Under the pieces are notes generated by a model. It saw nothing but the letters and a program-made list of their open reading frames with translations, was not told the DNA's origin and did no database searches. A stretch of DNA of 64,000 bases, taken from contig NZ_CP053837.1 in assembly GCF_013201705.1 (NCBI RefSeq), forward strand, positions 682,001 to 746,000. Reading direction: 5' to 3'. Source of the stretch: Aliarcobacter faecis. Its GTDB lineage: Bacteria > Campylobacterota > Campylobacteria > Campylobacterales > Arcobacteraceae. A program made the translations under genes and the position numbers. This document shows positions 12,718 to 22,908 of this stretch, piece after piece (position 1 is the first letter of the stretch; each line of letters opens with the position of its first letter).

Positions 12718-14052
12718 TTACCAATAAATAGTAATTCTAAATCCATTTGGAGTGATATTTTCAAAATTTAAATGTAGATTATGAAGTTTTGCAATTTGCA
12801 TAACAATAGAAAAACCAAGCCCACTTCCTATTTGTTTTTGACCTGTTGGTCGTATAAATCTTTCTCCTATGTTTTCTAAAATTTCAGAATTTATCCCTTT
12901 TCCATTATCTTCAATAATTAAACTATTTTTTTCTAATTCAATTTTTATATTAGTTCCATTTTCATTATATTTTATAGCATTATCAAGTAAATTTCTAATA
13001 AGTAAAGATAAAACAAAATCTTCTCCATTTATGGATTTAATATTATTTTTGTGTAAAAAATTTATAGATATATTTTTCTCTTTTGCTTTAAACTCTAACT
13101 CTTTAATGGTTGAATTTATAATTTCAATCCAATCTATTTTAGATATATTTTCAAACTCATTGATTGATTCTAATCTTGAAAGTGCTAAAAGTTGCTCTAT
13201 CATTCTTGTTGCTCTATTTACACCTATTTCAATATTATTTAGAGATTTTAAAAGTAAATCTTTATCATCTAAAGATAGTTTTGCAACTTCAGTTTGGATT
13301 TTTATTGCTGTAAGTGGAGTTTTAAGTTCATGTGCTGCATTTGAAGTAAATCGTCTCTCTTTTTCTATCATAGTATTTGTTTTTATAAATAGTGAATTTA
13401 AAGCTTTTATTACTGGTTTTAACTCTTTTGTACTATTTTCATCTAAAGTTGAACTATCCTTTGCATCTCTTAAAGTTAAATCCTTTGACAATTTATTTAA
13501 AGGTTTTAGCTCTTTTGTTATTAAAAGTATTGTAATAATAATTAAAAAAGGGAGTATAAAAAGCCAAGGGTATATTAAATCTTCTAAGATATCAAATATC
13601 AAATCATCAATAAACTCTTTTTCTGAAGCAACTACAACTACAAATTTTTTATTGTTACTTAACATCCAAATAATTCTAAATTTTTTATTTTCTTCAAAAA
13701 TAACTCCATCTTTACTACTTAGTATGGAAGGATTAAATAGAAAATTTTTACTATCTTCTCCATCTGTATATAGTATATTTCCATCTATTGAAAAGATAGA
13801 AAAAGTTAGAGCATCATCATCAACTGACATATATTTTTCCATATCATCAAGAGTTTGTTTTGATTGATTTTGTAGAATTCCAATATTTGAGTTAGAAAGC
13901 CTTTGTGCAAAATGAAAAAGCTCTGTATTAAACATTTCAATTAAAGATTTTTTTGTTTGATACATACTAATAGAAGTGGCAATAAATGAAGCTATAATAA
14001 ATAAAAAAAGTAAAATAAAAGCTAATCTTAATCTTAAACTTAGATTTTTCAT
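12718..14052 (-). CDS. Sensor histidine kinase (QseC-like)
   Basis: 444 residues. Two membrane helices (about 8-28 and 157-178) flank a periplasmic domain of ~130 residues. The phosphoacceptor is H241 in NAAHELKTPLTAIKIQ, and the ATPase domain holds the N box LLDNAIKYN, DNGKGI and GSGLGFSI. The N-terminal sensor region is typical of QseC/PmrB-type kinases. The start overlaps the regulator gene by four bases (ATGA), so the two form one unit. The signal cannot be read from the sequence. Confidence 0.9.
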   Translation of the reverse strand: MKNLSLRLRLAFILLFLFIIASFIATSISMYQTKKSLIEMFNTELFHFAQRLSNSNIGILQNQSKQTLDDMEKYMSVDDDALTFSIFSIDGNILYTDGEDSKNFLFNPSILSSKDGVIFEENKKFRIIWMLSNNKKFVVVVASEKEFIDDLIFDILEDLIYPWLFILPFLIIITILLITKELKPLNKLSKDLTLRDAKDSSTLDENSTKELKPVIKALNSLFIKTNTMIEKERRFTSNAAHELKTPLTAIKIQTEVAKLSLDDKDLLLKSLNNIEIGVNRATRMIEQLLALSRLESINEFENISKIDWIEIINSTIKELEFKAKEKNISINFLHKNNIKSINGEDFVLSLLIRNLLDNAIKYNENGTNIKIELEKNSLIIEDNGKGINSEILENIGERFIRPTGQKQIGSGLGFSIVMQIAKLHNLHLNFENITPNGFRITIYW

Positions 14053-14711
14053 TTTTTATCTTCCAATTTATATCCAGCGCCATAAATTGTCTTTATATAG
14101 CTATTTCCAAGTTTTTTTCTAATAGCATGTATAAAAACATCGAGGGTATTTGAATTTAGCTCTTTGTCAAAATCATAAAGTTTTTCACTAATAGTCTCTC
14201 TACTTAAAACCACCCCTTTATTTAACATAAAAATTTTAAGAACCTTTATCTCTTTTGCTGTAAAATCTATTTCTTTACCATTTTTTGTAACTTTTTGTTC
14301 TGCTAGATAGAGTTTTATATCTGCTACTTCTATAAACTCTGCAACTTCACCATAACTTCGTCTAATCAATGCACTAACTCTTGCTTGTAATTCAGCTAAA
14401 GAAAAAGGTTTGCAAAGATAATCATCTGCACCTTTGTTTAAGCCTTCAATTCTTTGATTTATGGCATCTCTTGCAGTTAGTATAATTACAGGAGTTTTTA
14501 TCTTCTTTTCTCGCCAAAATTTTAAAATATCAAGACCATCCATACTAGGAAGGCTTAAATCAAGGATAACAGCATCATAATTTGCCATCATTAAAGCATC
14601 TTTTCCATCAAGACCATCTTCAAACCAATCCACAGTAAATCCAAGTTTTTTTAAACCTGCTACTATCCCATCACCAATTAAACTATCATCTTCAATAAGT
14701 AAAATTTTCAT
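14049..14711 (-). CDS. OmpR-family response regulator (QseB-like)
   Basis: 220 residues. Receiver domain with the acidic pair D8/D9, phosphorylation site D51 in VILDLSLPSMDG and the lysine in CKPF near 101. The C-terminal winged helix (about 128-218) ends in the TIYGAGYKLE motif of OmpR-type DNA-binding domains. It is the first gene of the regulator-kinase unit upstream of the ygiW-like gene and probably controls it. Confidence 0.92.
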   Translation of the reverse strand: MKILLIEDDSLIGDGIVAGLKKLGFTVDWFEDGLDGKDALMMANYDAVILDLSLPSMDGLDILKFWREKKIKTPVIILTARDAINQRIEGLNKGADDYLCKPFSLAELQARVSALIRRSYGEVAEFIEVADIKLYLAEQKVTKNGKEIDFTAKEIKVLKIFMLNKGVVLSRETISEKLYDFDKELNSNTLDVFIHAIRKKLGNSYIKTIYGAGYKLEDKK

Positions 14712-14769
14712 AAATCATCTTTTTGTTTTTACTATTTATATCAAAAGAATATTAGTAAAAAATTAATAA

Positions 14770-16656
14770 TCAATTTTTTATATAGTTCTCTTTTTTGTCA
14801 ATAGTATCTAATTCTTGACCTATTTCTTGGTATCTTTTGAAATAGTACTTTACAAAAGAGTTGATATTTTCATCATTTGGCATAAAATATTTCTCTTTTT
14901 TTGTAGCATAACGATTTAAAAACTCTGTTGCATCTAGTTTTTCTAAATAGTGTTTAGCTAAAGCAGTGTAGTTTTCAATATACCAAGCCTTTAATTTTTC
15001 AAATTTTTTATCACTTATATCTATATTTAGTTTTCTGTTTTCATTATCCCAATCTAAAACTCTGCTTTCAAATAATCCACTTAAATGAATTAATCCTTCA
15101 CAATAGTATGGTTGAACTTCATCAACTTCCATCCAACCAATCAATCCAACACTTCGTTTTACTAAATCTATTAAAACTTGCTCTTTTAAGTGCTTTTCAT
15201 CATTTTCAACATCCAGTAAATATGAGATTAATCCACCTGTTGTTGCTTTGAACTCTTCAATATTTTTGAAATTTCCAGTTTTATTCATAAAGCTTTCTGT
15301 CTCTTCATCACACCATAAAATATGCCCATATTCATGCCCAATAGTACTTATATCATAAACTTGATGCCAAGAAGCAGTTTCATTAAATAAAAATGTTCTA
15401 TCTTTTGTTAATAACTCTTGTCCAAAAATCTCAAGGCTTAGTTTTAAAAATGGTTTTGCTCTACTACTTTGTAAAATTTCATCAGAGAATGCAAATATTT
15501 TTTTACCTTCTTCTAAACTTACTACTTCATCATTTGGTACAACTTGGGCTGAAAAAAGTCCATTTAATTCTGCACCAAAAAATAGTGCTGGTCGTCCAAC
15601 ATAAAGTTGAACTTTATCAAGTGAAGCGAAACTAAAATCATAGATTTTTTTATATTTTGTATTTGCCTCAAAACTACTATAAATTTTGCTAAATGCACTT
15701 TTTATCTTATTTACTCTATGGTCATTTTGTGCAAATTTTGGATTTGTAACTCTTATATCCCACTCTAGGGCAACTGCTTTTCTAAAGTGGTCTTCATAAT
15801 ATTCTAAGGGGTGTCCTATTTGAATTGGAGTTTTTATTTTCATCCAAGCTCTATCTACATCTGCCCATTTTGAAACTAACTCATTTGTTCTATCTTCACT
15901 AAAAGCTTTGATAAGTGCTTGTATATATAAAATATAATCCCATTTTTGGTTATATATTTCATCTTCAAGTTCAATTAGTTTATCTGCAAACTCTTCAAGT
16001 GCATCTACAACTTCTGTTGTCTCTTTTTTGAAAGCTTTTATATAGGCTTGAGATTTGTATTTTTCACCATCTTTTACTAAAGCTGAATAACATCTATCAG
16101 CAGTTATTCCAGCATGTCCTAAATCAAAAAGTTTTTCATCTTCAAGATATTTCATTATTTTTGCTTCATCGCCATCAAATCTAAGCATTAACTCTTTATT
16201 TATACCATTTATAATATGAGCTGTCCAAGAAGTTTGCCAAGATGACATTTGAAGTCCTATATTATAAACTCCTATAAATATTTCTCTATAAAACTGGTTT
16301 AGAAGTGAATTTTGAACGATAAAATCTATAAATTTTGTGTGAATATCATGCCAATACTCTTTTACAAATTGGTATGCTTTTTCTTGATAAGCGATAATCT
16401 CTTTTTCATTCTTTTCAAGTTTTTTTAGAACTTGAACTAAACTATCATCTCGTAAGTTTACAACTCTTGTAACAAGTGCAAATCTTAAATCACTACTCAT
16501 TTCAAGATTTAAAGATTTTGCAAAATCATTTATAAGTGTTAGTTTATCAAACTCTTCATTTTCTAAATATTTTATAAGTTCATTTGTTTTTGATTTTTGA
16601 TTTTCTAAAAAGTCATATATCTTTTGTAAATCATTTAAAAATTGTTCTTTTGTCAT
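14770..16656 (-). CDS. ciaB: CiaB, invasion-antigen-B homologue with HExxH motif
   Basis: 628 residues, close to Campylobacter CiaB (about 610). The stretches around WADVDRAWMKI and VQLYVGRPALFFG match the regions targeted by the ciaB PCR commonly used for Arcobacter, as I recall it. The protein also contains TIGHEYGHILW, a zinc-metallopeptidase HExxH motif at about residues 441-445, with acidic residues following. No signal peptide is seen. The name comes from a reported secreted invasion factor, but the motif points to an enzymatic peptidase. It stands alone between the two-component genes and the RES cassette. Confidence 0.88.
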   Translation of the reverse strand: MTKEQFLNDLQKIYDFLENQKSKTNELIKYLENEEFDKLTLINDFAKSLNLEMSSDLRFALVTRVVNLRDDSLVQVLKKLEKNEKEIIAYQEKAYQFVKEYWHDIHTKFIDFIVQNSLLNQFYREIFIGVYNIGLQMSSWQTSWTAHIINGINKELMLRFDGDEAKIMKYLEDEKLFDLGHAGITADRCYSALVKDGEKYKSQAYIKAFKKETTEVVDALEEFADKLIELEDEIYNQKWDYILYIQALIKAFSEDRTNELVSKWADVDRAWMKIKTPIQIGHPLEYYEDHFRKAVALEWDIRVTNPKFAQNDHRVNKIKSAFSKIYSSFEANTKYKKIYDFSFASLDKVQLYVGRPALFFGAELNGLFSAQVVPNDEVVSLEEGKKIFAFSDEILQSSRAKPFLKLSLEIFGQELLTKDRTFLFNETASWHQVYDISTIGHEYGHILWCDEETESFMNKTGNFKNIEEFKATTGGLISYLLDVENDEKHLKEQVLIDLVKRSVGLIGWMEVDEVQPYYCEGLIHLSGLFESRVLDWDNENRKLNIDISDKKFEKLKAWYIENYTALAKHYLEKLDATEFLNRYATKKEKYFMPNDENINSFVKYYFKRYQEIGQELDTIDKKENYIKN

Positions 16657-16736
16657 AGTTTAGCCTTTATTTTTTGAAGTTCGTATTATATCAAAAGCTA
16701 GATTTTTTCAGTTTTAAATGCTTACAAAATTTTATA

Positions 16737-17861
16737 TTAATGAATTAGTTCTTTCCGAAAATTATTTAATTTATCTTCATTTTGTCCAAAAAGACTTTGT
16801 TCATACTCTTTTAATAATGCTTCTTCAATATCTTTGTAAATTACAGTTTCTCCACTCATATATAATGAAAGAAATTGTAAAGAACTTAAAACTGTCCAAT
16901 GAATAGGTTTTGTTAATGAAAATAAACTTTTTAATCTTGGACAATACTCATTTCTTAAACTATTTTTATTTTCTTTAGGTGGTAATACTATATTTATACC
17001 TTTTGAGTTAAAATCTTTATGATTCATTTTAGTTGAAAAGTATCTAATTCCATGAAAATGATCTTTTTCATTACTTAACCATTGTAGTATCATATTTGGA
17101 ATAATATATTCAATATTGAAATTTGCATTTTTATATTGTTTCTTAAAACTACAAGCAAAAATCAAAGGGTATAAAATAAAAAAAGATAAAATTTTTTCTT
17201 CTTCTTTTATTGCTTGTTCTGTATCTAAACTATTTTTTAATATATTGAAAGTTATAGCAAAATCTAAAATATTTATTTGTTGGGTAGAATTAAATTCCGA
17301 TATAAAAGTATCATCTAAATTTGGTTTCTCTAATTCTTGCCAACAAGCATATAAAGAATTTCCTAAATATAAACTAGGTACTCCAGCAACTGAATATCTC
17401 TGAGTTGAAACTAAATATCTCTTATCAAAAGAAATATGAAATATTTCTCCTAGTTTATTAACATTTTTATCTTTAGAAATCCTCATTCTATAAAATTTAC
17501 TATTTTCTTCATACTTAAAAGAGAGTTTTTCAATATAAGTACGATAATCGTTTATCATATTTGAGAATTTTTCAAAAGCTTCTTTACTTCTACCAGATAA
17601 ATACACCAAAATGATATTTTCTATTTCATCTTTTAAATTAGAAATTTTGTTAATTTCATTAAATATTTTTTGTCCAAAGATATTAGTTCTAGGAAAACTA
17701 TTAATTCTTTTTAAATATTCGTCCATTCTTTCTTTAAATGTATGAAGATAACCATCTTGTAAAGATTCCACTGGATAATCAAAATCAAATTTTCTTTCAT
17801 CATCCTCTGAAATTATAATTTCTAAAATTTCTTTTAAATCACTATTATTTATTTGTGGCAT
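16737..17861 (-). CDS. RES-domain protein with N-terminal helical extension
   Basis: 374 residues. Residues ~1-115 are helical, and the RES fold starts near 120. The arginines are in FYRMRIS (R125) and TQRYSVAG (R155), the glutamate in YACWQELEKP (E176) and the serine in IRYFSTKM (S276), which fits the Arg-Glu-Ser triad that names the family. Characterised RES toxins consume NAD+ and are paired with Xre-type antitoxins. Extended RES proteins with such helical N-termini are poorly studied. The start lies 4 bases after the broken Ntn-hydrolase gene, with GGAAGGG upstream. Activity not shown; residue choice is by pattern. Confidence 0.75.
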   Translation of the reverse strand: MPQINNSDLKEILEIIISEDDERKFDFDYPVESLQDGYLHTFKERMDEYLKRINSFPRTNIFGQKIFNEINKISNLKDEIENIILVYLSGRSKEAFEKFSNMINDYRTYIEKLSFKYEENSKFYRMRISKDKNVNKLGEIFHISFDKRYLVSTQRYSVAGVPSLYLGNSLYACWQELEKPNLDDTFISEFNSTQQINILDFAITFNILKNSLDTEQAIKEEEKILSFFILYPLIFACSFKKQYKNANFNIEYIIPNMILQWLSNEKDHFHGIRYFSTKMNHKDFNSKGINIVLPPKENKNSLRNEYCPRLKSLFSLTKPIHWTVLSSLQFLSLYMSGETVIYKDIEEALLKEYEQSLFGQNEDKLNNFRKELIH

Positions 17862-17865
17862 TTAT

Positions 17866-18419
17866 TTATCCCTTCCCATTTTGTTCTTTTTGAATAATAT
17901 ATAAATCAAATTTTTCAGAAATAGTTTTATCAATATTAGAAGCATATTTAATAGTATTAATTATTGAATCTTTAATATTTAAACCTTCTATTATTTTTGT
18001 TTCAAAATAGGTATTAAATTTATCAATATTATCTGTTGAAGCTATATTATAAATCAAATCTCCTTTTATCGGTTCTTTTTTATAAATTTTTTCACCTGCA
18101 TTATTTTTTGACCAAATAAAAAATTTATTTGTTTCATCAGTTCCAATAAGAGTATAGTTGCTTTTATGCCAGAGATTTGAATAATCTCATCAGCTTTTTC
18201 TAAAATATAGTTTATATTATTTTCTGAAAATTTATTAATTTGATCATATAAATCGAAAACATAATCAGTTACTCCTGTTATACCACAATACAATTTTTTA
18301 TTTCCGATTTGATAAATTTTTTTTAAATTATCTTGATATCTTCTATCTAAATAAGATAATCTTTTATCTGAAACTATAAAGCCAAAACCTTGATACATGG
18401 CTGAAATAATTATACTCAT
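17866..18419 (-). pseudogene. Proteasome-fold Ntn-hydrolase, interrupted by a -1 frameshift
   Basis: The first part (18419 to about 18165) starts with MSIIISAMYQGFGFIVSDKR. If the initiator Met is removed, Ser1, Asp17 and Lys33 line up without a gap with Thr1, Asp17 and Lys33 of HslV, and a CGITG loop matches the FAGG loop. Near 18162-18166 a run of four T (A on the coding strand) lacks one base. The continuation KSNYTLIGTDETNKFF lies in the next frame and runs to a stop at 17866. With one base restored the gene is 185 codons, about 184 residues, a normal proteasome-beta length. The start has AAAAGGACTA upstream. It lies between the HTH gene and the RES gene, same strand. Frameshift may be natural, a sequencing error, or programmed. 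Confidence 0.7.
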
Positions 18420-18483
18420 ATTAGTCCTTTTATAATTTACATGTATAATAACAAAATTACAACAATAAAAGCTAAAAAAATAA

Positions 18484-18678
18484 CTATTTCTTAGTTTCAA
18501 ACTCTTTTTTTAGTTCTTTTAACTCTTCCAAGCTTTTTTCTGATTTTTCTATAATCTCATCAACCATAAGTCCTAACATAACAGTTTTATAAAGATTTGG
18601 TCTATCTTTTTTCCAGTTAAATAGTGTTTTATAATCTATTCCTAAATATCCTGCAATATCTCTTTTTGTCATTTTCAT
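18484..18678 (-). CDS. Small helix-turn-helix protein upstream of the RES cassette
   Basis: 64 residues. TKRDIAGYLGIDYKTLFNW is a helix-turn-helix of the kind that reads DIA-x-x-LGI-x-x-x-T-L-x-x-W, followed by a charged helix rich in Glu and Lys (EKSLEELKELKKEF). It is 65 bases upstream of the Ntn-hydrolase start on the same strand and could be the repressor or antitoxin of the cassette. Short proteins of this kind are common in Campylobacterota; no specific family name is claimed. Confidence 0.65.
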   Translation of the reverse strand: MKMTKRDIAGYLGIDYKTLFNWKKDRPNLYKTVMLGLMVDEIIEKSEKSLEELKELKKEFETKK

Positions 18679-18854
18679 AAGTAAATACCTTTTTATTTAA
18701 GAATTTACTTTGTAACAAATGATAAAACAACTATGTAATAATTCTATATATTAAGTTATATATAATGAAAAATTCCATAGTATTTTGAAGTTATGGTAAT
18801 TATTCTATATTATTATATAAAAATATGGAATATATAAATATTCAAGGAAAAATA

Positions 18855-19439
18855 ATGCTAAAAAAATTACTTATTATGATGATATTAATATCTTTTAATA
18901 TGCTAGCTTCTGATTTTGGAGCAAGTTATTTTAATGATGGAGTAATAGAGTATAAAAATGAAAATTACGCTAAAGCTATTAAGTTGTATGAACAAGCATC
19001 TAAAAGAGGAAATATTGATGCTATGTTTAATTTAGGAGTTATTTATTCAAATGGTGTAATAGAAAAAGATTATGAAAAGGCTTTTTACTGGTTTGAAAAA
19101 GCTGTAAATAAAGGAGATAAAAAAGCTATATATAATCTAGGTGTAATGTATGATAATGGCTTAGGTGTAAAAGTAGATAAGAAAAAAGCCATTGAACTTT
19201 ATGAAAAATCTGCAAATTATGGAAATGCAATAGCAATTTATAACTTAGGGAGTAAATATTATTTGGGTGATGGTGTTTCAAAAAACATAAAAAAAGCTTT
19301 TGATTTATATGAGAAGTCTGCAAACTTAGGAGTTCAGGAAGCAATGTACAATTTAAGTTTAATGTATAAAAATGGAGATGGTGTACAAAAGGATGAAAAA
19401 AAATCAAAATATTGGTTAGATAAATCAAAAGAAAATTAA
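18855..19439 (+). CDS. Secreted Sel1-like repeat protein (first of a tandem pair)
   Basis: 194 residues from this start. Signal peptide MLKKLLIMMILISFNMLAS, then four to five Sel1-like repeats of 36 residues with the AMFNLGVIYSNG... KAFYWFEKA pattern. The repeats form a solenoid used for protein-protein contacts. An in-frame ATG exists 30 bases upstream, but AAGGAAAAATA lies just before this one and the signal peptide starts here. The next gene is a paralogue, 19 bases on. Confidence 0.85.
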   Translation: MLKKLLIMMILISFNMLASDFGASYFNDGVIEYKNENYAKAIKLYEQASKRGNIDAMFNLGVIYSNGVIEKDYEKAFYWFEKAVNKGDKKAIYNLGVMYDNGLGVKVDKKKAIELYEKSANYGNAIAIYNLGSKYYLGDGVSKNIKKAFDLYEKSANLGVQEAMYNLSLMYKNGDGVQKDEKKSKYWLDKSKEN

Positions 19440-19458
19440 TAAAAAAAGGATTAAAGAA

Positions 19459-20199
19459 ATGCTAAAAAAACTACTTATTATGATGATATTTATATCAATA
19501 AATTTATTTGCTAGGGATAGTGCAACCTACTATTTTGATGAAGGAGTAAGAGATTACAACAATAAAAACTACAAACAAGCCATAAAAAACTATGAAAAAT
19601 CAGCAAAACTTGGAAATAAAAAAGCTATGTATAATTTAGGGCTTATATATTCAGGTGGAATTGGTGTAGAAAAAGATTACAAAAAAGCTTTTTCTTGTTA
19701 TGAACAAGCCTCAAATAAAGGTGATTTTAACTCTATGTATAATCTTGCAGTTATGTATGATGATGGTTTGGGAGTAGAAAAGAATAGCAAAAAAGCAGTT
19801 GAATTTTATACAAAATCGGCAAATCTTGGAAATGCAAATGCTATGTATAATTTAGCAAATAAATATTATGCTGGAGATGAGGTAGATAAAAATATAGATG
19901 AAGCAATAAAATGGTATGAAAAATCAGCAAATTTGGGTGTTCATCAAGCTATACACAATTTAGGGATGATTTATGTAAGTGATGAGAAAAAAGATTATAA
20001 AAAAGCTATTGAGTATTTTGAAAAAGCTTCAACTTTGGGCGATTATAAATCTATGAATGCTCTTGGAATTATCTACTATCAAGGGCAAGGTGTAGAAAAA
20101 GATATGAAAAAAGCAAAATATTATATAGAAAAATCAAGAGATAGTGGAAGCCCTGAAGCCTCAAAATATTATGAAAAATATCAGTTATGGAAGTATTAA
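19459..20199 (+). CDS. Secreted Sel1-like repeat protein (second of a tandem pair)
   Basis: 246 residues. Signal peptide of ~19 residues ending NLFAR, almost the same as the upstream gene (MLKKLLIMMI), then five to six Sel1 repeats with AMYNLGLIYSGG-type turns. The conserved signal and repeats show a recent tandem duplication, with this copy longer by about one and a half repeats. Likely periplasmic. Partner unknown. Confidence 0.85.
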   Translation: MLKKLLIMMIFISINLFARDSATYYFDEGVRDYNNKNYKQAIKNYEKSAKLGNKKAMYNLGLIYSGGIGVEKDYKKAFSCYEQASNKGDFNSMYNLAVMYDDGLGVEKNSKKAVEFYTKSANLGNANAMYNLANKYYAGDEVDKNIDEAIKWYEKSANLGVHQAIHNLGMIYVSDEKKDYKKAIEYFEKASTLGDYKSMNALGIIYYQGQGVEKDMKKAKYYIEKSRDSGSPEASKYYEKYQLWKY

Positions 20200-20219
20200 A
20201 TTATTAGACTTTGCAATTT

Positions 20220-20246
20220 TTAGCACTTAATATATAAAAGTGCTAA
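20220..20246 (+). promoter_or_regulatory. CIRCE-like operator upstream of htpG
   Basis: TTAGCACTT, nine bases, AAGTGCTAA: the arrangement of the HrcA operator CIRCE (TTAGCACTC-N9-GAGTGCTAA), with one symmetric change in each arm. It is 103 bases before the htpG start codon, so HrcA repression and heat-shock release are likely. It also lies 20 bases after the Sel1 gene stop and forms a hairpin in RNA. Confidence 0.75.
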
Positions 20247-20349
20247 ATTCCTTAAAAACTTTAGCCAAGTTTAATCAAGTTCTTATTAAAATTCTCTTTT
20301 AAGAAATTCAAAATTTATAAAAATATTAAAATAAGAGAGGATAAAAAAG

Positions 20350-22257
20350 ATGGCAAAACATCAATTTCAAACAGAAGTAGGGCAGTTATTACACCTAATG
20401 ACACACTCTTTATATTCAAATAAAGAGATTTTTATAAGAGAACTTGTATCAAATGGAAGTGATGCAATAGATAAACTAAACTATTTAAGACTTACAGATG
20501 AGAGCTTAAAAGAGAGTTTTGCTTCTTGGAAAGGTGAAATTAATATCTCTTTTGATGAGAAAGATAAATCATTGACTATTATGGATAATGGTATTGGTAT
20601 GAATGAAGAGGATATGATAAACTCTATTGGAACTATTGCAAAATCTGGAACAAAATCTTTTGTAGAAGCTCTTACAGGTGATGCAAAAAAAGATTCAAAT
20701 CTTATTGGACAGTTTGGAGTAGGATTCTATTCAGTATTTATGGTGGCTTCAAAAGTAGATGTTATCTCTAAAAAAGCTGGTAGTGAAACTGCTTATAAAT
20801 GGAGTTCAGAGGGAACAGGAGAGTTTGATTTAGTACCTTGTACAAAAGAATCAAATGGAACAGTTATTTATATTAAACTAAAAGATGAAGAAGTATCAGA
20901 ATTTGCAAGTAAATATAGAATAAAAAATATTATAGAGAAATACTCAAATCATATAGCTTATCCTATTTTCTTAAATTATGATGAAGAAGTAATGCAAGAA
21001 TTAAGTGAAGAAGATGAAAAAGCTGGTAAAAAAGCAGAGAAGAAAATTGAAAGAAAACATGAACAAATAAATGAAGCAACAGCTTTATGGATTCAACCAA
21101 AAGCAAAATTAAAAGAGGAAGATTATAATAATTTTTATAAATCAATCTCTCAAGATAGTAATGACCCAATGCTTACAATTCATACAAAAACAGAAGGAGT
21201 AAATGAGTACACAACACTATTTTATATCCCGCAAAATGCTCCATTTGATATGTATAGAGCAGATTACCAAAGTGGAATTAAACTATATGTAAAAAGAGTG
21301 TTTATCACAGATGATGATAAAGAGTTACTTCCAACTTATCTTAGATTTGTAAGAGGAATTATTGATAGTGAAGATTTACCACTAAATGTAAGTAGAGAAA
21401 TCTTACAAGAGAATAGAATTTTAGCAAATATCAAACAAAGTAGTGTTAAAAAGATTTTAAGTGAGATTAAAAAGCTTTCTAAAGATGAGGAGAAATACTC
21501 TAAGTTTATAGGGCAGTATAATAGAGCTTTAAAAGAGGGAGTTTATCAAGACTACACAAATAAAGAGGCTATTTTAGAGCTTTTAAGATATAAATCAACA
21601 AATGATGATAAAAAACTAACTTCTCTTGAAGATTATAAAAATAGAGCAAACTCTGAACAAAAAGCTATTTATTATATTGTTGGTGAGAATGAAAAAGTTT
21701 TAAGAAACTCTCCTCTTTTAGAAAGTTATAAGAAAAACAGTATTGAGGTTTTAATACTTGATGATAAAGAGATAGATGAGATTATAACTCCAACTATTGG
21801 AGCATTTAAAGAGTGGCAATTTACAGATGTTACAACTGCTGAAGCTCCAAAAGTAGAGGTAAATGAAGAAGAAAATAAAAAAGTTGAAGAAGAATTTAAA
21901 GATATAGTTTCAAAAATTAAGGAAAAACTAGGAGATGAAGTAAAAGATGTAAAAATTACTTCAAGATTGTCTGAATCAGCTTCTTGTATCACAAAAGATA
22001 GTCAAGATGCACAAATGGCTGCAATGGCACATATGTTTAGAGCAATGGGACAAAGTGTACCTGAAGTAAAACCAATTTTAGAGATAAATCCAAATCATGA
22101 AATAGTAAAAAAACTACAAGCTTCAAAAGATGAAGATTTAATCGAAGATGTATCTTGGATTTTACTAGATTTAGCAAAAATTAGTGATGGAGTTGATGTA
22201 AGTGATAGAGTTTCATTTACAAAAAGACTTACAAAGATAACTTCTCTTGCTATCTAA
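20350..22257 (+). CDS. htpG: Chaperone HtpG (Hsp90)
   Basis: 635 residues, the usual bacterial Hsp90 length. N-terminal ATPase domain starts HQFQTEVGQLLHLM and contains IRELVSNGSDAIDK, DNGIGM and GQFGVGFYS; the middle domain has LPLNVSREILQENR near 340; the C-terminal dimerisation domain ends in DGVDVSDRVSF. It helps client proteins fold under stress in the cytoplasm. A CIRCE-like operator lies upstream. It appears monocistronic. Confidence 0.97.
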   Translation: MAKHQFQTEVGQLLHLMTHSLYSNKEIFIRELVSNGSDAIDKLNYLRLTDESLKESFASWKGEINISFDEKDKSLTIMDNGIGMNEEDMINSIGTIAKSGTKSFVEALTGDAKKDSNLIGQFGVGFYSVFMVASKVDVISKKAGSETAYKWSSEGTGEFDLVPCTKESNGTVIYIKLKDEEVSEFASKYRIKNIIEKYSNHIAYPIFLNYDEEVMQELSEEDEKAGKKAEKKIERKHEQINEATALWIQPKAKLKEEDYNNFYKSISQDSNDPMLTIHTKTEGVNEYTTLFYIPQNAPFDMYRADYQSGIKLYVKRVFITDDDKELLPTYLRFVRGIIDSEDLPLNVSREILQENRILANIKQSSVKKILSEIKKLSKDEEKYSKFIGQYNRALKEGVYQDYTNKEAILELLRYKSTNDDKKLTSLEDYKNRANSEQKAIYYIVGENEKVLRNSPLLESYKKNSIEVLILDDKEIDEIITPTIGAFKEWQFTDVTTAEAPKVEVNEEENKKVEEEFKDIVSKIKEKLGDEVKDVKITSRLSESASCITKDSQDAQMAAMAHMFRAMGQSVPEVKPILEINPNHEIVKKLQASKDEDLIEDVSWILLDLAKISDGVDVSDRVSFTKRLTKITSLAI

Positions 22258-22326
22258 AGTTTAGTAAAAAACTTGACAAAGCTCCAAAATTTAGATAATT
22301 TACAAAAAAATTATAAAGGTTAAAAT

Positions 22327-22908
22327 ATGTTTGGGGCTTTGTTTGAGGGGTTGAAATTTATATTTAAAAGAGTTACAAAACTTTCTATTCCATATTTTAG
22401 TCTTGAAGAAAATGATTTAAAATTTAAAATTACTAGTGAGTATAGTTATAAATTTCCTATTTCAAATATAGAAACAAAAACAAGGCATGATGCCTATGTT
22501 GTAGATGCTTACACTTTAAAAACAAAAGAGATTTATGTTGAGTATATTCATATATACTATGATGCTAGTTGGAATGGTCAAGCTTTAGGGCATTTTTTAT
22601 CTTTACTAAAAGAGAATATTTTTGCAAAAAACTTTGATTTAGTTGATAGTTATGAGTTTAATCATTATGAGTTTAGAACATATTTTGTTGATAATAGTTA
22701 CTATTTAAATATTATTTATCTTTATGAAAATAGTAAAGAGATATTTATAATAGATAAAAAGTTTTCACTTTTTCAAGGATTATTAAGAAATTTTAAAAAA
22801 AATTATACTTTTACTTTTGATGAAAAATTTAATTTAGATTTAGATTTTAGTTTTAGTTTAGTAAAGAAAAATGCAACAAATAACTATTTTAAAGTAACTT
22901 CAAGCTAA
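22327..22908 (+). CDS. Protein of unknown function, beta-rich, 193 aa
   Basis: No family recognised. The sequence is aromatic and acidic, with many short strands (YVEYIHIYYDASWNG, YLNIIYLYENSKEIFI) and no signal peptide; the first ~25 residues include a basic amphipathic stretch (KFIFKRVTKLSIPYF). It follows htpG by 69 bases with TATAAAGGTTAAAAT upstream and ends in a terminator shared with thiC. Not restricted by context to any pathway. Confidence 0.65.
   Translation: MFGALFEGLKFIFKRVTKLSIPYFSLEENDLKFKITSEYSYKFPISNIETKTRHDAYVVDAYTLKTKEIYVEYIHIYYDASWNGQALGHFLSLLKENIFAKNFDLVDSYEFNHYEFRTYFVDNSYYLNIIYLYENSKEIFIIDKKFSLFQGLLRNFKKNYTFTFDEKFNLDLDFSFSLVKKNATNNYFKVTSS

Follow-up and report, generated by a model that had tools for sequence, protein, structure and literature searches.

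We have analysed a locus of Aliarcobacter faecis at which the gene for a long RES protein follows a small helix-turn-helix (HTH) gene and a broken gene resembling an N-terminal nucleophile (Ntn) hydrolase. The locus lies in a stretch of 64,000 nucleotides (nt) of contig NZ_CP053837.1 (positions 682,001 to 746,000 of the forward strand), which is referred to here as the window. The three coding stretches stand close together on the minus strand in the order HTH, Ntn-like and RES, as a preliminary description of this DNA had stated, with the middle one extending from about 18419 to 17866 (Table 1). The Ntn-like and RES genes are probably carried on one transcript, since the gap between the end of the former (17866) and the start of the latter (17861) is 4 bases. 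A search of Rfam gave no structured RNA match in 14000-22500, a promoter scan gave fewer sites than were found in shuffled sequences, and NCBIfam and PADLOC searches with the three window proteins returned nothing useful.

Table 1. Genes of the locus and its borders, in window coordinates
Feature	Position	Strand	Basis or remark
Long RES protein, 374 aa, YopC/phrog_7835 family	16737..17861	-	homology, fold model
Parts of the RES protein: mainly helical N-terminal ~100 aa; RES/ADP-ribosyltransferase (ART)-fold domain at ~residues 98-361			
Proteasome/HslV-like Ntn-hydrolase gene, first piece	18066..18419	-	Ser1, Asp17 and Lys33 in register; the frame's stop is at 18066
Ntn-like gene, second piece, in another frame	17866..18159	-	carries the coding signal from ~18150 on
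Small HTH protein, 64 aa	18484..18678	-	common across the family; present too where Ntn and RES are lacking
DUF7897 protein, 628 aa, left border of the variable slot	14770..16656	-	Pfam name
Two Sel1/TPR-type genes	18825..20199	+	named by eye
HtpG-like chaperone gene, right border of the slot	20350..22257	+	named from sequence

By sequence comparison and by its predicted structure, the RES gene product is confirmed as a RES-fold protein of the family formed by YopC of Bacillus phage SPbeta and phrog_7835. The phrog_7835 profile matched it at E 2.1e-80, aligning residues 6-336 of 374 with positions 8-346 of 396, and identity to YopC and phrog_7835 relatives was 25-38% in two alignments. Over most of its length the protein thus belongs with YopC and the phrog_7835 members of P2-like prophages (SopEPhi orfY and Escherichia phage Cartapus), and the motifs around the RES core as well as the mainly helical N-terminal part are common to them and the window protein. 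The window protein is full length, has an intact frame and retains the family-invariant residues. With the window protein as the first row, 19 columns were invariant among 9 sequences and 46 among 38 sequences; the conserved residues include R127, H142, R148, R155, S157, Y165 and E176. R127, E176 and S157, which like some others are invariant in both alignments, are candidates for the conserved Arg, Glu and Ser of RES proteins. According to PMC9503650, RES proteins have other residues in place of the S and E found in related ARTs. The top structural matches of the predicted model were the RES toxins MbcT, NatT, ParT, VPA0770 and RES-Pp, and comparison of the models indicates a RES/ART fold at 9-16% identity to solved RES chains of 144-250 aa. 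A search of solved structures with the RES profile gave nothing relevant, and Foldseek gave no match to viral models at E ≤ 0.001. The relatives and the model uphold the earlier recognition of a 374-residue RES protein.

In order to place the family, viral contigs were scanned with the family alignment, which recovered 101 relatives; the best 80 of these (L049-L128) were used, several of them ending near the RES gene. In 72 of these best 80 loci RES follows an integrase gene on the same strand, in four it precedes the integrase and in four neither arrangement was seen. Most of the loci fetched thus place the family in prophages; the window copy occupies a chromosomal slot and has an Ntn-like neighbour. 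Because RES follows the integrase in most of the loci fetched, a lysogen-protecting role of phrog_7835 proteins is suggested, either in lysogenic conversion or in superinfection exclusion. phrog_7835 itself is listed as of "unknown function", and literature searches for YopC with RES, and for links of RES to abortive infection or to defence against phages, found nothing useful. In the four loci where RES stands on the far side of the integrase (L073, L083, L091 and L120), a repressor-like phage gene, named by eye, lies upstream. In one viral contig (L061:2279-5143), two genes stand ahead of RES: one encodes a TIR-domain protein (PADLOC TIR effector, 1.1e-40), the other a 191-aa protein with no PADLOC or Pfam match.

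Plasmid members of the family also exist, and a blastn search of the whole cassette against plasmids matched only part of RES. Of 5426 E. coli genomes, 38 carried the RES gene of Cartapus or a related one, and in 11 of the 38 the match covered 80% or more of its length. In our sample of the phylum (397 genomes, one per species), phrog_7835 was found in two genomes, that of the window and G084, where only the C-terminal part remains. The G084 copy is a truncated remnant in a defence-like island (L223:1178-8580) together with a NACHT-domain gene and PD-Lambda-5 A and B. RES matches in G100 and G169 were short and contained stops (E 4-6e-4). A pattern scan of genome contigs with RES gave no confirmed relative, and scans of viral contigs with single-sequence queries gave nothing useful. 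The window protein links a bacterial chromosome to the large prophage RES family phrog_7835.

The product of the middle gene had been described as a proteasome-beta-like protein with Ser1, Asp17 and Lys33 at the HslV positions. These positions stand: with Met removed, the three residues align with HslV Thr1, Asp17 and Lys33 without a gap, the alignment being ungapped over profile positions 17-71 and extended by eye to the N-terminal end. The gene as a whole is not intact; it is split over two frames. It further differs from HslV in having Ser for Thr at position 1, in scoring below the Pfam cut-off and in having no recognised unfoldase gene beside it. The Pfam Proteasome profile (PF00227) matched only the first piece, at E=0.0019 and 18.3 bits, under the cut-off of 22.4. 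The first piece matched proteins of two phylum genomes that are HslV by sequence (E 8.9e-5 and 5.3e-4) and scored 14.2 bits against a profile of 29 HslV proteins, for which the best of 2000 shuffles reached 6.9. In the PDB list HslV chains ranked first at E=0.023, with unrelated Kaiso chains close behind at 0.035. Against the likeness, when the sequence by itself was compared with the 29-HslV profile in hhalign, the probability was 10% in local and 2% in global mode. The second piece had no significant HslV match, and the predicted model of the first piece alone was too poor to show a four-layer alpha-beta-beta-alpha fold (mean predicted local distance difference test score, pLDDT, 39.6). From sequence, we consider the similarity to proteasome subunits and HslV real but weak. 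An origin as a paralogue of HslV was rejected: the only PF00227 match at E ≤ 0.1 in the same genome was the ordinary HslV at C1:1377291, in a search too blunt to detect the window gene itself. One family genome, G044, carries extra proteasome-type matches (L019 and others), three of the five places having internal stops, possibly through contamination.

The first frame of the Ntn-like gene opens with an ATG at 18419 and runs for 117 codons to the stop at 18066, and the remainder, to 17866, lies in a different frame. Codon usage was followed as log-odds in 15-codon windows, trained on open reading frames (ORFs) of the window of at least 200 aa. The first frame scored best in all such windows down to 18155 and the second in all thereafter; between 18143 and 18074 the first frame was weakly positive again in four windows (0.2 to 2.5), against 6 to 10 for the second. 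The coding signal therefore changes frame at about 18150, some 80 bases before the first-frame stop, and because it passes from frame to frame in this way the gene appears to have been one continuous coding sequence that was interrupted close to that point. Mutation, sequencing error and a ribosomal frame change are all candidate causes. A dnaX-like slippery heptamer, A-AAA-AAG, was seen by eye just before the first-frame stop, but programmed -1 frameshifting there was set aside, as the signal has already switched frame far upstream. The two strands of the window together hold 120 copies of AAAAAAG, and five stand in that phase among 36 long ORFs; given this frequency and the upstream frame change, the heptamer looks like a chance occurrence. 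A ribosomal frame change may take place at another site.

Relatives of the Ntn-like gene were sought with both pieces, which are weak queries that distant relatives may escape. Among 104 family genomes neither piece had a convincing relative except HslV, five genomes matching the first piece weakly (E 0.005-0.008), and in the phylum sample the first piece likewise had none except HslV. The first piece had no convincing match in plasmids up to E 10 or in phages up to E 0.1, and matched phrog_8668 at E 0.053; the second had three Borreliella matches in plasmids at E 4. Pattern scans of genome contigs with the first piece and of viral contigs with both gave no convincing relative. Pairing was surveyed at full sensitivity in 80 viral and nine other RES loci, comprising 89 loci and 10,865 ORFs. 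The two Ntn pieces and the HTH protein reached best E values of 1.7, 2.0 and 2.6, the HslV profile gave nothing at E ≤ 10, and an Ntn-RES pair outside the window was found in 0 of 89 loci, within the power of these weak queries. The preliminary description had looked to an intact Ntn gene conserved beside RES for support; with the present data that test fails, as the gene is broken in the assembly. Absence of adjacency elsewhere, one of its two grounds for refutation, is what these searches gave as far as they reach; the other, a lack of both folds, does not apply, since the RES fold is present. Literature searches for Ntn hydrolases with toxin-antitoxin systems and for proteasome-like proteins with antiphage activity gave nothing relevant.

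The locus lies between the DUF7897 gene, whose product has a HEYGH motif that we take to be of the M3 kind, and the gene at 20350..22257, which is presumably htpG. The DUF7897 gene was present in 29 of 31 genus genomes, and the interval to htpG was read in 28 species, the contig of the 29th genome (G024) being too short. This interval measured 168-237 bp in ten of the 28 and 352 and 511 bp in two; in 14, the window included, it ranged from 986 bp to 9 kb with cargo that differs among species, and in two htpG was not reached. The window slot spans 16657-20349 (3.7 kb). When the 29 slot stretches were searched, Ntn or RES at E ≤ 1e-4 was found only in that of the window. Cargo named by eye elsewhere includes a catalase-peroxidase, an aquaporin, sensor kinases and an acyltransferase. 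Two slots (L203 and L206) hold an 85-aa and 137-aa pair resembling an antitoxin and a PIN toxin; the L203 pair had no Pfam match at E ≤ 0.001. No phage genes were recognised by eye in the window slot, and a search for insertion marks found none, only short AT-rich repeats.

Relatives of the HTH protein occur in 43 of the 104 family genomes, six of them belonging to other species within the genus and sharing 78-94% identity, and among these 43 a full RES match is found only in the window's own genome. In G013, G014 and G030 the HTH gene likewise lies between the DUF7897 gene and htpG, but neither Ntn nor RES accompanies it, and in G030 an 85%-identical counterpart of the second Sel1/TPR-type gene adjoins the HTH gene. 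The HTH gene was there before, or travels alone, and is a separate gene from the other two. As far as they reach, the slot survey and the RES neighbourhood survey do not uphold a conserved three-gene cassette. The earlier proposal of a toxin-antitoxin or defence-like module retains its RES effector and its accessory, defence-like surroundings; a dedicated module of three genes is not supported, the HTH gene standing in the slot of three relatives without the other two and no Ntn gene having been detected in the 89 RES loci.

We think it fairly probable that RES here is a growth-arrest effector like the YopC proteins of prophages, gained by horizontal transfer and located beside an independent HTH gene and a broken Ntn-like companion. 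Observation establishes the family, the fold, the conserved residues, the lack of any full-length copy in those related species that were searched, and the variable slot. RES would have entered this slot, where it lies behind the HTH gene, and the Ntn-like gene may have been acquired with it or beside it. The predicted model shares the RES/ART fold of MbcT, NatT, ParT and RES-Pp and presumably their NAD+ substrate; by analogy with solved RES toxins, the protein would bind NAD+ and hydrolyse or phosphorolyse it. When RES is made or released, growth would stop, and its DNA would be kept in place or phage growth halted. Its control might lie with the HTH protein, with low expression, or with nothing at all if RES is weakly toxic, which is a guess. 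The Ntn-like gene is most likely idle in the cell now, barring sequencing error or a ribosomal frame change, because the frame break precludes a whole protein in the assembly.

The Pfam RES family (PF08808) gave the window protein no match at E ≤ 10. Nor did any other Pfam family at that threshold, in which the protein differs from the HEPN/RES-NTD1 proteins; these, according to PMC3710099, resemble it in joining RES to an added, mainly helical N-terminal domain. Among eight relatives, Pfam RES exceeded its cut-off in three, fell below it in four and gave no match at E ≤ 0.1 in one. The G+C content of the insert is 20-23%; that of the DUF7897 and response-regulator genes is 25-31%, and the DNA on the right-hand side has 26-29%. 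A sensor-kinase gene further left is equally low (21-24%), and for that reason G+C is weak evidence for acquisition. The 4-base spacing, the retained catalytic positions S1, D17 and K33 and the recent-looking break keep alive the idea of RES gated by the Ntn-like protein. A real Ntn-RES operon, in which a Ser1 proteasome-fold peptidase or binder holds, activates or destroys RES and the break stems from a very recent mutation, a translational frameshift or an error of sequencing, would also fit the surrounding genes, which are open, and the codon usage, which is normal on both sides of the break and therefore points to selection until recently. We nevertheless hold such an operon to be unlikely in view of the missing partners at other RES loci, the want of any convincing relative but HslV, the broken state of the sole known copy and the position of the frame change. 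Quite improbable is its fuller form, a two-gene system in which a Ser1 proteasome-fold protein, translated from the mRNA that also encodes RES, gates this NAD-consuming effector of phage type by proteolysis or binding while a reused HTH gene, found ahead of several defence-like genes in the family, controls transcription. Peptidase control of RES, if true, would be without precedent in the searches made, yet the case for it comes from one locus with a single, broken copy of the gene.

The HTH protein might instead serve RES as its cognate antitoxin, an arrangement known from RES-Xre pairs and perhaps present in YopB-YopC, with the Ntn-like gene a passenger. A small HTH gene directly precedes RES in SPbeta (yopB-yopC) and, by eye, in Acetoanaerobium, and lies beside RES in Priestia; PMC2701414 places RES genes mostly in predicted operons with Xre-type HTH genes, and PMC9503650 describes phage RES-HTH pairs. 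The window protein is unlike the RES-Xre toxins in its length (374 aa against 144-250) and in that no recognised Xre/ParS-type antitoxin adjoins it. Moreover, the Ntn frame stands between HTH and RES, the HTH gene occurs without RES as described above, and its best Pfam matches are transposase-type HTH families below the cut-off, so that we judge a cognate pair improbable. Decay of the whole insert, with RES a remnant being lost, would agree with the broken Ntn-like gene and the truncated fragment in G084; the full-length frame and retained invariant residues of the window RES speak against it and make it very unlikely.

The HTH protein itself had weak matches to PADLOC mad1 (0.012) and to small-terminase-type PHROGs (3e-5 to 0.008). 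Of the 30 HTH loci examined, 28 were readable downstream, and in 11 of these, the window included, the next gene has the same orientation and begins no more than 200 bases away. Apart from the window there are ten such downstream genes, of which five were scanned with PADLOC; three matched (DUF4238-Pers, 4.6e-49; PD-Lambda-5_A, 5.1e-26; Orf5, 2.6e-91) and two had no match, while one of the five outside the scan is the DUF7897 gene itself. As a lead from these counts, the HTH protein may serve mobile defence genes as a common regulator. In L133, L156 and L158 (HTH at ~1500-1690), from other species of the family, the HTH gene stands directly before DUF4238-Pers, PD-Lambda-5_A and Orf5/HEC-06.
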